Assembly (NCBI GenBank): GCA_016933835.1
Contig: JAFGAC010000106.1
Coordinates: 1 to 64,000 of the forward strand
Origin: Clostridiales bacterium
GTDB taxonomy: Bacteria > Bacillota > Clostridia > Peptostreptococcales > Acidaminobacteraceae
Direction of reading: 5' to 3'
Length of the DNA: 64,000 bases
The notes under the pieces are model-generated. The model was not told the DNA's origin. It did no database searches and worked only from the letters and a program-made list of their open reading frames with translations. Both the position numbers and the translations under genes were made by a program. This document shows, piece after piece, positions 1,442-38,260 of this stretch (position 1 is its first letter; every line of letters begins with the position of its first letter).

Positions 1442-2425
1442 TTAATAGATTCCCATCTCAAATATTTCTTTTATTGTCTTGTAGTCTTCTGTTTTTGCCA
1501 GTGAAAGCATGAGTTTTATTCTCGCTTTTTGACCATTGAGATTGCCCGCGAAAATAACCCCGCGATTTCTTAAATCCTTACCGGCACCTTCATAACCGTA
1601 AGAGTCCAGTACTCTACCCATAGGGCATCTTGAGACTAAAACAATTTTCACATCTTTTGAAAGTGCATAATCAACACCATCAAGCATGGTTGGTGGAATA
1701 TTTCCTCTTCCCATGGCTTCAATAACGATTCCTTTAGCGCCATGGTCTACAGCATAGCGAAGAAAACCTGAATCGAGACCGACGACAGCTTTAATCAATG
1801 AAACATTTTCTTCAATCGAATTGACATCAATATAGTCATGACGAGTCATATCTCTGTAGAAAATGACCTCATCATTGTCAACAACTCCTAAAGGTCCGAA
1901 TTCAAGAGATCTGAAAGTGTTCAATGAAAGGGTATGAGATTTTGTCACTTCGCTAGCTGCATTTACTTCATTATTGAGAACGACAAGACACCCTTTGCCT
2001 CTTGCGTTATCTGATGCTGCAGTTGCAATTGCAGAAGCAATATTGCTCGGGCCGTCAAATCCCAATTCCGATGCACTTCTCATGGCGGCAACCATTACAA
2101 TAGGCTTGTCGGTGATAACATTTAAATCAATTAAAAATGCGGTTTCTTCTAATGAATCGGTACCGTGGGTTACTACAACACCCGTTATGTCATCTCTTGC
2201 AACAAGTTCCTTGATTAAGTTGGATAATTCCATAATTTTGGCAGGTGTCATATGAGGTCCTGGCAAGCGAGAAAAGTTGATGATTTCGATTGCGGACATT
2301 TTATCAAGATTTGTTACCATCGACATGATTTCTTCACTTGATAGAGCAGGTATGGCTGCAGCAAGTCTTGGATCGACTTTCATAGAAATGGTTCCACCGG
2401 TAAATACTATAGCGACTTTTTTCAT
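1442..2425 (-). CDS. L-asparaginase (type I-like, cytoplasmic)
   Basis: 327 residues; hydrolyses asparagine to aspartate and ammonia. The first catalytic threonine lies in FTGGTIS close to the N-terminus, and the second block VVTHGTDSLEETAFLI holds the T-D pair of the family. There is no signal peptide once the ATG preceded by GGAGGGAATC is used; an upstream in-frame ATG (2476) would add 17 residues without a ribosome site. It is divergent from the cysteine desulfurase gene. The C-terminal domain (GKDLRNRGVIFAGNLNGQKA) matches bacterial asparaginases of 320-340 residues. Confidence 0.92.
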   Translation of the reverse strand: MKKVAIVFTGGTISMKVDPRLAAAIPALSSEEIMSMVTNLDKMSAIEIINFSRLPGPHMTPAKIMELSNLIKELVARDDITGVVVTHGTDSLEETAFLIDLNVITDKPIVMVAAMRSASELGFDGPSNIASAIATAASDNARGKGCLVVLNNEVNAASEVTKSHTLSLNTFRSLEFGPLGVVDNDEVIFYRDMTRHDYIDVNSIEENVSLIKAVVGLDSGFLRYAVDHGAKGIVIEAMGRGNIPPTMLDGVDYALSKDVKIVLVSRCPMGRVLDSYGYEGAGKDLRNRGVIFAGNLNGQKARIKLMLSLAKTEDYKTIKEIFEMGIY

Positions 2426-3684: not shown

Positions 3685-4878
3685 ATGTTAGAAAAAGTAA
3701 TTATTGTAAAATATGGTGAAATTGGTTTAAAAGGAAAAAATAGATATTTTTTTGAAAATACACTGATAGCAAACATCAAGAAAAAGTTGAAAGACTATGA
3801 TATTAAAATATTAAAGACACACGGACGAATTTATGTTGAAAATGTGGATGAAAATATTGACTCGATCATACCTTTACTTCAGGAAGTATTTGGAATTGTG
3901 GCTTTAAGTATTGGGGTAAAAGCACCTCTGGATCTTGAGATAGGTGGTCAAGTAGCTATTGACCTTATGAAAGAAGTGGTTCATGATCAAGTCAAGACAT
4001 TCAAAGTTGAAACACGAAGAAGCAATAAAGGGTTTCCTTATAAATCACCTGAGATTTCAAGTGAAATAGGTGGAATGATTCTTGAAAATTTAGATAATTT
4101 GAAAGTAGACGTTCATAATCCTGAAATTGTTGTCACTGTAGAAGTTAGAGACTTGATCTATATTTATGTTGTTTCAATTCCTGGAATTGGTGGAATGCCT
4201 TATAAAACAGCTTCAAAAGCGGTACTGTTACTATCGGGTGGCATTGATTCGCCTGTAGCTGGTTATTTGATGGCTAGAAGAGGTGTGGAGATTGAAGCTG
4301 TTCATTTTCACAGTTTTCCGTTTACATCAGAGAGAGCACAGGAAAAAGTGATTGAGCTTGCAAGAAGAATGGCCAAATACACTGGTCATATTAGAATTCA
4401 CAGTATCAATATATTGGAAATTCAAACTGAAACTAATCAAAAATGTCCTCTGCCTCAATCCACAATTTTATCGCGTAGATTTATGATGAGATTGGCTGAA
4501 AAAGTTGCTAAGGAAATTGGTGCAAGATCCTTGATTACTGGAGAAAGCATTGGTCAAGTGGCTTCTCAAACCATGGAGAGCTTGGCCGTTACAAATGCAA
4601 CAGTTCAAATGCCAGTTTTTAGACCATTGATTGCAATGGATAAAATAGATATTATAAAAATCGCACAGTCTATTGATACATTTGAAACGTCAATTTTACC
4701 ATATGAAGATTGCTGCACGGTATTTTTACCAGAAAAGGTAGTGACAAGACCAGAATTGGCCGACATTGAAGCTTCGGAAGCTTTAGTAGATGTTTATGCC
4801 CTAGTAGAGAAAGCATTTGCTACGAGAGAAATCATCGGAGTGAAGTATGAGGGAACTGTATGGCGACAAGAAAAATAG
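3685..4878 (+). CDS. thiI: tRNA 4-thiouridine synthetase ThiI (rhodanese-less)
   Basis: 397 residues. An N-terminal ferredoxin-like/THUMP region (about 1-165) binds tRNA and is followed by the adenylating PP-loop domain with the pyrophosphatase motif SGGIDSP at about 184-190. The protein ends after the AANH domain, without the C-terminal rhodanese domain of enterobacterial ThiI, as in Bacillus; the desulfurase encoded upstream should hand over sulfur directly. CPLPQ and DCCTVF cysteines are conserved in the family. I prefer the second of two adjacent ATGs because AAGGAG (3673-3678) is then six bases away. It overlaps the next gene by 19 bases. Confidence 0.95.
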   Translation: MLEKVIIVKYGEIGLKGKNRYFFENTLIANIKKKLKDYDIKILKTHGRIYVENVDENIDSIIPLLQEVFGIVALSIGVKAPLDLEIGGQVAIDLMKEVVHDQVKTFKVETRRSNKGFPYKSPEISSEIGGMILENLDNLKVDVHNPEIVVTVEVRDLIYIYVVSIPGIGGMPYKTASKAVLLLSGGIDSPVAGYLMARRGVEIEAVHFHSFPFTSERAQEKVIELARRMAKYTGHIRIHSINILEIQTETNQKCPLPQSTILSRRFMMRLAEKVAKEIGARSLITGESIGQVASQTMESLAVTNATVQMPVFRPLIAMDKIDIIKIAQSIDTFETSILPYEDCCTVFLPEKVVTRPELADIEASEALVDVYALVEKAFATREIIGVKYEGTVWRQEK

Positions 4879-35775: not shown

Positions 35776-35799
35776 AAAACCCCTCCGAAGAAGGGTTTT
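35776..35799 (-). terminator. Terminator of the trxR operon (minus strand)
   Basis: On the minus strand AAAACCC-TTCTTCGGA-GGGGTTTTT followed by A/T-rich sequence, directly after the two-CxxC gene. Confidence 0.75.
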
Positions 35800-35810
35800 A
35801 TATATTTTGA

Positions 35811-36452
35811 CTATAAGCTTTCGATTGTGCTTAAGAATTCTTCCAATGGTTGATTTCCTACTAAATCAGCACCATCATTGAAGATGATCTTAGGAACGCC
35901 ACTTACATTGAATTTGTTTGATAACTCACCAAATGTGTTTGCTTCAACCATTTCAGCATTTACCAATGGATTCAATAACGCAATTTTATGTGCTTTAGCA
36001 ACTGCTCCTGGGCAGTGAGGACAAGATAAAGTAACAAATACTTTGATATTGACTGGCTTGTCGATGCCTTCAATTCTTGCAATCAATTCTGCAGGCAATT
36101 CTTCTCCAGCACCAGATACTTCTAAAACGCCAGTTATGAATGAGTTGATTTCATGTCCAGCAGGGATGCCATAATATTTAATACCTAGATCTTTGTTATT
36201 CTCATCCAATAATACTATTGCAGGTGTGTATTCAACATTTAATTCAGCAGCTTTTTCAGCATCAGCATTCATATCATAAACTGTCAAAGTAAGTTTATCA
36301 CTTAATTCTGCCATTTCTTCCATGTAACCTTTTGTGTCTTCACAAGATTCACAATCGCTTTCTTGTACGAATACTGCGATGTTCACGTTTTTCTTCATTG
36401 GTTCAAAAATTTCTGTAATTTGTTTTCTGATATCATCATTTAAAAATGCCAT
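35811..36452 (-). CDS. Two-thioredoxin-fold protein disulfide oxidoreductase (AhpF N-domain/PDO-like)
   Basis: 213 residues folding as two thioredoxin units. The first has C34ESC37 and cis-proline YTPAIV; the second has SC144PHC147PGAV and GVPKII. The second unit aligns by eye with the active N-terminal domain of AhpF (SCHNCP type), while having a CxxC in both units recalls archaeal PDO proteins. It lies 20 bases after the thioredoxin reductase gene, so the pair would act as NAD(P)H-flavoprotein-disulfide relay, in effect a split AhpF. No AhpC gene is adjacent; the final acceptor is unknown. Confidence 0.88.
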   Translation of the reverse strand: MAFLNDDIRKQITEIFEPMKKNVNIAVFVQESDCESCEDTKGYMEEMAELSDKLTLTVYDMNADAEKAAELNVEYTPAIVLLDENNKDLGIKYYGIPAGHEINSFITGVLEVSGAGEELPAELIARIEGIDKPVNIKVFVTLSCPHCPGAVAKAHKIALLNPLVNAEMVEANTFGELSNKFNVSGVPKIIFNDGADLVGNQPLEEFLSTIESL

Positions 36453-36472
36453 GATATATTCCTCCTAGAATT

Positions 36473-37447
36473 TTATTTTAATTTATTAATATAATCATTC
36501 GCACTGAGTGCAGCTTTTGCGCCCTCAGCAGCTGAAATTATAATTTGTTTGTATGCAACATCTGTGATGTCACCCGCTGCGTAGATACCTTCTACATTGG
36601 TTTCAGCCTTGTTGTTTACAATGATTTCTTTCTTGTCATTCAAAGCAAGCAAGTTTTCAAATATTTCACTTTTTGGAAGATATCCGATTTCGACGAATAA
36701 TCCATCTGCTTTGATTTCGATTTCTTTGTTTGATTTTTTGTCTAAGGCTACAATATGTGTCATCAACATTTCACCAAAAATTTCTTTAATCTGTGTTTGA
36801 AGATAAACTTCAACGTTTTTCAATCCATAAAGTTTGTCTACTAAAATTTTGTCCGCTCTAAAATCACTTCTATGCACCAACATGACTTTATTTGCAATTT
36901 TTGCCAGATCTATAGCCGCTTCTACTGCTGAATTTCCGCCACCTGTTACGATGACATCCCTCTCTGCAAATAAAGGACCATCACAAATAGCACAGTAGGC
37001 AACACCTCTACCCAAATATTCTTTTTCACCAGGAACATTCAACATTCTTGGCTTGCTACCTGTCGAAACAATGATTGTTTTTGCCTTGTAAGTTTTGCCG
37101 TTTGATGCAATAATTTCTTTAACTTCATTATTGATGACTTCTTTTACAAGTACATCTGAAGTGATCGGCACTTTGTATTCTTTGACATGCTCTTCAAACT
37201 TATGCATCAGTTCTTCACCTGTCAAATATTTATAGCCCAAATAATTTTCAACTGAAGAAGTATCAAGAACTTGTCCACCGATACGATCAGCTATGATTCC
37301 TACATTAAGTCCTTTTCTTTTTGCATATAGCGCTGCGTTGAGTCCGGCTGGTCCACCACCGATAATAATTGTATCGTATATTGTATTGGTATCCAGTTTA
37401 TTCGACATTTCTTCAGCACTGAAACTTAAACTAAAATCTAATCCCAT
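36473..37447 (-). CDS. trxB: Thioredoxin reductase-like flavoprotein (AhpF C-domain type)
   Basis: 324 residues. FAD site IIGGGPAGLNAALYAKR (about 28-44), redox pair C152AIC155DGPLF, NAD(P)H site VTGGGNSAVEAAIDLAK and C-terminal AAGDITDVAYKQIIISAAEGAKAA. DRIGGQVLDTSSVENYLG is closer to AhpF than to classical TrxB. An N-terminal extension of about 20 residues precedes the FAD domain. AGGTG six bases before the ATG. It is preceded by the RAYT-like gene (13-base gap) and followed by the two-CxxC gene. Confidence 0.93.
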   Translation of the reverse strand: MGLDFSLSFSAEEMSNKLDTNTIYDTIIIGGGPAGLNAALYAKRKGLNVGIIADRIGGQVLDTSSVENYLGYKYLTGEELMHKFEEHVKEYKVPITSDVLVKEVINNEVKEIIASNGKTYKAKTIIVSTGSKPRMLNVPGEKEYLGRGVAYCAICDGPLFAERDVIVTGGGNSAVEAAIDLAKIANKVMLVHRSDFRADKILVDKLYGLKNVEVYLQTQIKEIFGEMLMTHIVALDKKSNKEIEIKADGLFVEIGYLPKSEIFENLLALNDKKEIIVNNKAETNVEGIYAAGDITDVAYKQIIISAAEGAKAALSANDYINKLK

Positions 37448-37460
37448 TTATTACACCTCA

Positions 37461-38201
37461 TCATTCTTTATTGCGATTAACTATTTTACACACTGCAGAC
37501 TCACTAAGTCCACCAAATAAATGACCGATTTCTTTCAACGAAAGGGTGGTCATTTTGCGAAAATTCAATAATTCTTGATTCCTGATATTTTTATTTGAAA
37601 GAAATTGATCAATGGTTACCTCATATTTCTTTGCAAGCGTTTCAATGACTGCCTTGCCTTGCTCAAAATCATGGATGCAGTTTTCTGTATTTTTACATGA
37701 AACATTGATTTTCATGCAGAATTCATCAGTAAATTGATCCCTGATCAGAATTCTTTCTTGAGGACTATTTGGCGGTGTAAAGTAAATTTCAAAATCAATC
37801 AAATTTTCAGTTTTATTAAAGCCATATTCACAACAATTTTTATGTTTATGCAAATTGCTGATGATTTCCTCTAAATGCTCAGGAGATTTAATCAAAGTAC
37901 TTTTATATCTTTCATTAAATATTTTTCCCTGATTTTTAATATGGTAAGCGTAACTGATGTTGATAGATTTCATTATTTTTGAAATATCACTCCCATTGTC
38001 ATAGATAATGAGTTTGTATTTCCTATCATCTGCCAGACAGTAGCCATAGATTTTAAAATTGAACTGATTTTTTTTATCTTTAAGTATATTGATAAATTCT
38101 TCTCTGTCCAATTCGTCTTCAAATATTTTTTTATCTGGAATACAGGATTGAATTATTAAATATGTGCCAAAAGGTATTTTTTCTCTTGCCTTACGAGGCA
38201 T
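37461..38201 (-). CDS. RAYT (Y1 transposase)-derived protein lacking the HUH motif, with DnaA-like C-terminal helix-turn-helix
   Basis: 246 residues. The fold order is that of REP-associated tyrosine transposases: an N-terminal beta segment, YGYCLADDRKYKLII where active relatives have YCLMPNHVHLL, a YAYHIKNQGKIFNERYKST block (candidate catalytic tyrosine 86), and a C-terminal DnaA_C-like helix-turn-helix (LSLKEIGHLFGGLSESAV). Both HUH histidines are replaced (DDRKYK), so metal-dependent nicking should be lost. Eight cysteines (20, 55, 123, 124, 162, 169, 175, 238) are unusual. AGAGGTG six bases before ATG 38201. It lies 13 bases before trxB, probably in the same transcript. Confidence 0.75.
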   Translation of the reverse strand: MPRKAREKIPFGTYLIIQSCIPDKKIFEDELDREEFINILKDKKNQFNFKIYGYCLADDRKYKLIIYDNGSDISKIMKSINISYAYHIKNQGKIFNERYKSTLIKSPEHLEEIISNLHKHKNCCEYGFNKTENLIDFEIYFTPPNSPQERILIRDQFTDEFCMKINVSCKNTENCIHDFEQGKAVIETLAKKYEVTIDQFLSNKNIRNQELLNFRKMTTLSLKEIGHLFGGLSESAVCKIVNRNKE

Positions 38202-38220
38202 TTCCATCACCTCTGTTATT

Positions 38221-38249
38221 AAAGTAATATAAAAAGGAACTTTTGTCAA
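38221..38249 (-). promoter_or_regulatory. Candidate promoter within a REP-like sequence upstream of the RAYT-derived gene
   Basis: Minus strand: TTGACA (38244-38249), 17-base spacer, TACTTT (38221-38226). The -35 region lies in GGGACGGTACTTGACAAAAG (minus strand), which from memory resembles GGGACGG...CTTTTGACA repeats common near RAYT genes in Firmicutes. So this can be a transposon end that doubles as promoter. Confidence 0.4.
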
Positions 38250-38260
38250 GTACCGTCCCT

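Follow-up and report, generated by a model that had tools for sequence, protein, structure and literature searches.

A catalytically defective tyrosine transposase and a fossil transposon end as candidate regulator and operator of a thioredoxin-reductase/PDO operon

Results

A HUH-less RAYT gene ahead of trxB and pdo

Three consecutive genes occupy the minus strand in part of the window (the whole 64,000-nt stretch of DNA that was analysed). The first, at 37461..38201, encodes a HUH-less protein derived from RAYT/TIRYT transposases, with 246 aa if translated from the ATG at 38201, or 248 aa if the ATG at 38207 is used; the gene is single-copy in its own genome. trxB (36473..37447) starts 13 nt past its stop codon and encodes a flavoprotein resembling thioredoxin reductase and the C-terminal half of AhpF, with a CAIC motif; the product matches Pfam Pyr_redox_2, and its best NCBIfam matches, TIGR03140 and TIGR01292, each score below their own cut-off. 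The next gene, pdo (35811..36452), encodes a protein disulfide oxidoreductase with CESC and CPHC motifs (TIGR02187, 250.5 bits against a cut-off of 185, E 1e-74), and an intrinsic-terminator-like hairpin lies 3′ of it (35776..35799, minus strand).

On the same strand, the HUH-less gene is preceded by a ribosome-binding site, AGAGGTG (38208..38214), a −35 hexamer, TTGACA (38244..38249), and, at a spacing of 17 nt, a −10 hexamer, TACTTT (38221..38226), homologous to TATATT/TATACT in relatives. Because this −10 is weak, a generic sigma-70 consensus scan omits the window promoter. The original prediction had listed an open frame with a ribosome-binding site, a DDRKYK sequence, a DnaA-like helix-turn-helix (HTH), eight cysteines, TTGACA, the 13-nt gap to trxB and a two-CxxC gene, and all are present in the sequence. 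Its TTG start at 38249 has to be revised: this is the −35 hexamer itself, and the likely start is the ATG at 38201 (or 38207) behind AGAGGTG.

The HUH-less protein scored 31.7 bits against Pfam PF01797 Y1_Tnp (E 1.9e-7, cut-off 23), indicating that the Y1_Tnp fold is present, and its C-terminus scored 27 bits against PF08299 Bac_DnaA_C (E 4.7e-6), below the gathering threshold of 31.5. The NCBIfam model REP_Tyr_transpos gave 25.8 bits, short of its cut-off of 80. In an AF2 model (pLDDT 82.8, pTM 0.62), residues 1–160 resemble the E. coli RAYT/TnpA_REP protein (PDB 4er8; PMC8266576), sharing its N-terminal fold with Z 12.1 over 134 residues. Residues 176–246 resemble DnaA domain IV (1j1v; Z 7.2, 24% identity over 67 residues); a Z below 8 is weak by itself, and the sub-cut-off Bac_DnaA_C match concurs. 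The HTH also weakly resembles region 4 of sigma factors (FliA, E 0.003). Among solved redox regulators we found no relative by sequence, with weak sigma-factor/HTH matches only, nor any in the fold lists, and a PHROGs comparison gave no useful match.

Both HUH histidines are substituted in this protein: DDRKYK (38013..38030, minus strand) replaces DNHVH, with R/K/Y/K in the N/H/V/H alignment columns. The catalytic tyrosine column (YIHNNP) holds an N in the window protein and a Y in 24/24 HUH-intact rows.

Loss of the catalytic residues among relatives

A family profile search of 394 genomes of the order, as in the rest of the survey many of them fragmentary MAGs, identified HUH-less members in 35. 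Wider samples, 391 genomes from the class and 398 from the phylum, were searched at E 1e-40 and added HUH-intact relatives only; this threshold may overlook divergent members, because a scan of GTDB contigs with an alignment query (a single-protein query gave nothing) detected HUH-less cassettes also in Erysipelotrichaceae. The GTDB contigs further placed such cassettes in Fusibacter, Acidaminobacter, Proteiniclasticum, Youngiibacter, Tindallia, Anoxynatronum, Schnuerera and Anaerotalea. After removal of duplicates, the non-redundant set comprised 66 HUH-less and 30 HUH-intact proteins, picked by protein similarity and not by neighbourhood, with HUH state assigned by motif and six HUH-intact rows with odd starts set by hand.

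None of the 66 HUH-less proteins has H-x-H at the HUH position, and no tyrosine is among the residues listed for them, whereas both histidines and the tyrosine are present in 24/24 HUH-intact rows. In a tree of 35 HUH-less and 13 HUH-intact rows, loss of the HUH motif required a single change (support 100/100); a quick tree of 66 HUH-less and 24 HUH-intact rows that included Erysipelotrichaceae, with some long branches, again required one. Degeneration of the motif was uneven, since many HUH-less proteins retain one histidine: the second HUH column keeps it in about 30 of the 55 proteins from outside Erysipelotrichaceae, and 8 of the 11 from Erysipelotrichaceae retain a histidine near the first HUH position. 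The HUH-less homologues are full-length open frames, and close-relative pairs gave dN/dS values of ~0.04–0.2, with dS saturated for the window gene and its nearest relative. We conclude that the HUH-less genes form one clade, with a single ancestral loss, and are under purifying selection.

Linkage to trxB and pdo

HUH-less genes immediately precede trxB and/or pdo in 64 of 66 cases, as opposed to 0/30 HUH-intact relatives with a trxB or pdo neighbour. The order RAYT-trxB-pdo is found in 60/66, 58 by gene calling and two (L045 and L137) by tblastn, the gene picker having masked pdo. One locus has RAYT-trxB at a contig end (1/66), and three have RAYT-pdo or RAYT with a fused trxB-pdo (L179, L181 and L160; 3/66). 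In Clostridiaceae bacterium JG1575 (L187:282-1952) the HUH-less RAYT is fused in frame to TrxB, giving a protein of 556 aa. In Fusibacter sp. 3D3 (1/66), the HUH-less gene and trxB-pdo are separated by an IS: the break points, L040:5920-7344 and L200:3633-5057, carry identical genes for a 474-residue DDE transposase.

Among the 394 genomes, the HUH-less gene occurs in 35, a free-standing pdo in 36 and both in 34. The genome counted as having the gene without a free-standing pdo (G058) has it on a contig that ends in trxB; those with pdo alone are G011 and the 63%-complete G088, where a contig breaks off shortly before trxB. Distances between RAYT proteins are correlated with those between TrxB proteins (r 0.63, with 0/999 permutations giving a correlation as high) and with those between PDO proteins (r 0.68).

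The gene, its catalytic defect, its linkage and the upstream site described below are conserved across many genera and, at the level of sequence, strongly support the predicted domestication and a local DNA-binding role. The comparative checks proposed with the original prediction agreed with it: in the alignment of RAYT relatives HUH loss and trxB linkage go together, two cysteines are confined to HUH-less proteins (see below), and dN/dS is low. Neither of the outcomes named as refuting it, unlinked decay with stops or an intact HUH at the trxB/pdo locus, was seen in this set.

Two further features of the neighbourhood were noted. In L046-L050 and L080-L083, Fusibacter among them, the HUH-less gene has an ABC-transporter operon immediately upstream; in L049 this operon encodes a family-3 solute-binding protein, a permease and an ATPase. 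Genes for a DsbD/CcdA-like membrane protein and a thioredoxin-fold protein (identified for L051, 9122-10453) lie near the cassette in L051, L052 and L053.

Transposon ends at the operon promoter

Inverted repeats of the GGGGACGGTTCTTGA type flank the nearest HUH-intact relatives, mostly 50–75 bp upstream of the gene and, inverted, just downstream. A derived copy, GGGGACGGTACTTGA, lies upstream in 64/66 HUH-less cassettes, overlapping the −35 of the operon promoter. Because the HUH-intact relatives carry these TIR-like repeats at the matching upstream position, we concluded that the promoter site is the left transposon end. Allowing up to three mismatches, GGGACGGTACTTGA was found upstream of 64/66 HUH-less genes, most often 53–69 bp ahead of the start; among random windows from the same loci 3.7% match equally well, a figure inflated by windows holding real sites. 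The GGGAC and CTTGA blocks of the site carry 1.9–2.0 bits per base and the flanking columns mostly less than 0.5, and the −35/−10 spacing is 17 nt in 46 of the 64 HUH-less cassettes with a site. In those trxB-pdo operons without the HUH-less gene that were examined, the site was absent.

In the window, the putative operator, AGGGACGGTACTTGAC (38245..38260, minus strand), derived from the ancestral left terminal inverted repeat, overlaps the −35 hexamer. GGGACGGTACTTGAC matches exactly at 38245–38259, just beyond the segment described in the original prediction (35811–38249). The window site, AGGGACGG, departs from strict GGGGWSAS, the left end being present as a derived form and the right end absent, and a scan of the window genome at ≤1 mismatch found an operator-type site once.

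The GGGAC block is nearly invariant, although the HUH-less proteins average only about 39% identity. Promoter function alone would conserve the −35 part of the site; the GGGAC block is not explained in this way. At base 9 of the 14-mer, A is found in 60/64 HUH-less and in 0/16 HUH-intact sites, and in the recognition helix several HUH-intact proteins have ES[RW]V where most HUH-less ones have ES[AST]V. The two changes seem to have occurred in step, which we treat as a lead only: they amount to one event on the tree.

The inverted right-hand copy, just after the gene, is kept in 38/66 HUH-less cassettes: in 33/42 with a gap to trxB of at least 20 nt and in 2/19 with a shorter gap, exact counts that hinge on the 3-mismatch rule. 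It has been lost in the subclade that contains the window. A mobile trxB cassette bounded by these repeats was rejected, since the right repeat sits between the gene and trxB, and a search after pdo in the window found no match to the repeat.

We scanned 20 genomes at ≤1 mismatch and found 33 sites: 18 upstream of the gene, 6 downstream of it and 9 others. The last number equals the 9 obtained with a reversed control pattern, and a wide regulon was therefore rejected. Among the 7 other sites whose context was examined, L215 is convincing as a promoter, L237 is an ambiguous intergenic match, and the remainder lie inside genes. The L215 site (1501-1514, minus strand; genome G024) forms a second operator-promoter, GGGGACGGAACTTGAC-17 nt-TATTAT; the gene 59 bp downstream of it belongs to the SBF family (sodium/bile acid symporters). 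In L126 and L130, shortly before position 4001, an additional inverted half-site, AAGTACCGTCCC, lies between −35 and −10 and forms a palindrome with the operator. The Erysipelotrichaceae cassettes (L165, L171-L192), which lie outside Clostridia, have a diverged site, GGGGACATTACTTGA, and the right end GGGGACACTACTTGA.

Cysteines and the shift of conservation

The HTH core (37473..37592, minus strand) is the best-conserved part of the HUH-less family. Mean pairwise identity there is 0.58 in HUH-less versus 0.35 in HUH-intact proteins, as compared with 0.45 versus 0.55 in the Y1 domain and 0.18 versus 0.35 in the linker. By this measure, conservation has shifted from the Y1 domain to the HTH.

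Of the eight cysteines in the window protein, Cys55 is ancestral. Cys124 (codon 37830..37832, minus strand) and Cys175 (37677..37679, minus strand) are shared by 89% and 80% of HUH-less proteins, respectively, and occur in 0% of HUH-intact ones, and a recognition-helix cysteine is found in 56% versus 8%; this homology is approximate because the linker alignment is loose. HUH-less proteins have 4–12 cysteines each, and CxxC occurs in 43/66. The gained Cys124 and Cys175 would be compatible with a thiol switch and equally with a metal site.

Discussion

We consider it likely that a TIR-associated tyrosine transposase was domesticated as an autoregulator of the thioredoxin-reductase/PDO operon, with the transposon end as its operator. 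The comparative sequence data indicate catalysis lost once, purifying selection, linkage to trxB-pdo, a conserved site and an origin of that site in a TIR; from these we infer DNA binding to the site, the sign of control, thiol sensing and resetting by TrxB/PDO. A TIRYT (RAYT/TnpA_REP subclass 2.1, combining Y1 with a DnaA-like HTH) would have inserted upstream of trxB-pdo in an ancestor of these Firmicutes and, on losing its HUH motif and tyrosine once, become a dedicated local regulator. Its HTH would bind the fossil left transposon end, GGGGACGGTACTTGA, over the −35 of the promoter for its own gene and trxB-pdo; the likeness of the HTH to sigma region 4 would be in keeping with a −35 lying inside the site. 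Bound protein would most likely block sigma at the −35 and so repress its own gene. Overlap of the site with the −35 permits activation as well, and of the two we lean towards repression by competition with sigma. Where a lineage retains the right end, protein bound there as well, between the gene and trxB, could contribute looping or act as a road-block. The gained conserved cysteines (Cys124, Cys175 and, frequently, a recognition-helix residue) may, when oxidised or metal-bound, change binding, and TrxB/PDO may restore the reduced form of the regulator. Against the reading as a whole stand the uneven degeneration of the HUH motif, the varying number and spacing of the cysteines and the weak −10 of the window promoter. 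Within the original prediction, redox sensing, and reduction by the TrxB/PDO under its possible control, stay conjectural; as the signal, we give thiol state a slight preference over metal.

Alternatively, the same domesticated autoregulator could bind Zn or Fe-S through its cysteines, for structure or for iron/oxygen sensing, perhaps as an activator. Most members have 3–4 clustered linker cysteines, often with CxxC, and control of either sign is compatible with where the site lies relative to the −35. However, cysteine spacing is strongly variable and a few members have only two linker cysteines, which would be unusual for a fixed metal site, and the genomic linkage is to disulfide enzymes. 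We regard this alternative as unlikely.

Less likely still, no regulation is left: the transposon end would be reused solely as the trxB-pdo promoter, and the HUH-less gene kept for another role, such as a TrxB/PDO partner or a hairpin-binding protein. The conserved −35 does sit inside the site, and the in-frame RAYT-TrxB fusion of L187 suggests physical partnership. Nevertheless, the GGGAC block 5′ of the −35 hardly varies despite protein divergence, the inverted right copy, useless to this promoter, is retained in more than half of the cassettes, and the HTH core is the best-conserved part of the protein. Chance decay of a transposase remnant in front of trxB, which the missing catalytic residues might suggest, was rejected as extremely improbable given loss in a single clade, the low dN/dS, the full-length frames and linkage in 65/66, the remaining case being explained by an IS.

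The favoured reading, an autoregulator acting at its own transposon end, can be set beside known systems. TIRYT/TIRtron elements (Di Nocera 2013, PMC3733652) and TnpA_REP subclass 2.1 (Quentin 2018, PMC6006769) combine Y1 with a C-terminal Bac_DnaA_C/HTH, and the flanking inverted repeats of TIRYT elements begin GGGGAC-like (PMC3733652, PMC6006769). The window family shares the Y1 and DnaA-like HTH, and its nearest HUH-intact relatives carry such repeats. It differs in lacking HUH and tyrosine, in being fixed at one locus before trxB-pdo, and in having the left repeat over the −35, with the right repeat lost in the window's subclade. E. coli RAYT (PMC8266576), in contrast, is catalytic (Y115), acts on REP hairpins and ends before any DnaA-like HTH. 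The C-terminal fold is like that of DnaA domain IV (1j1v), but the conserved site here is GGGGACGGTACTTGA-like and not the DnaA box TT[AT]TNCACA. Hosts have co-opted mobile-element regulators such as Ner/SfsB and antitoxins (Benler and Koonin 2022, PMC8987985), likewise reusing mobile-element DNA-binding proteins for host transcription. Those cases begin as element regulators, whereas a tyrosine transposase would be the origin here, its operator being the end of its own transposon; RAYT/TnpA is absent from the cases in that review (PMC8987985). TrxB/AhpF + PDO pairs, in which a TrxB-like flavoprotein lies beside a TIGR02187 PDO as in the window, have no regulator of the HUH-less RAYT type recorded in the open-access papers searched, where we also found no precedent for a HUH-less RAYT regulator or for trxB with RAYT. 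What appears to be new is the persistence, in derived form, of the terminal repeat of HUH-intact relatives at the −35 of the HUH-less gene-trxB-pdo promoter.

More broadly, though with somewhat less confidence, we suggest a transcription-factor family of Clostridia and Erysipelotrichaceae that derives from a catalytically dead Y1 transposase, has a transposon end turned operator, and controls a thioredoxin-reductase/PDO operon by thiol or metal state. If true, one could trace how a tyrosine transposase turned into a transcription factor while its terminal repeat turned into the operator, and compare both with HUH-intact sister elements in which the repeat is still present. A candidate regulator would also be named for a thioredoxin-reductase/PDO system of anaerobes. 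An earlier survey excluded sequences without HUH/Y as suggested non-functional (Quentin et al., PMC6006769); HUH-less RAYT genes of this kind can be under strong selection.
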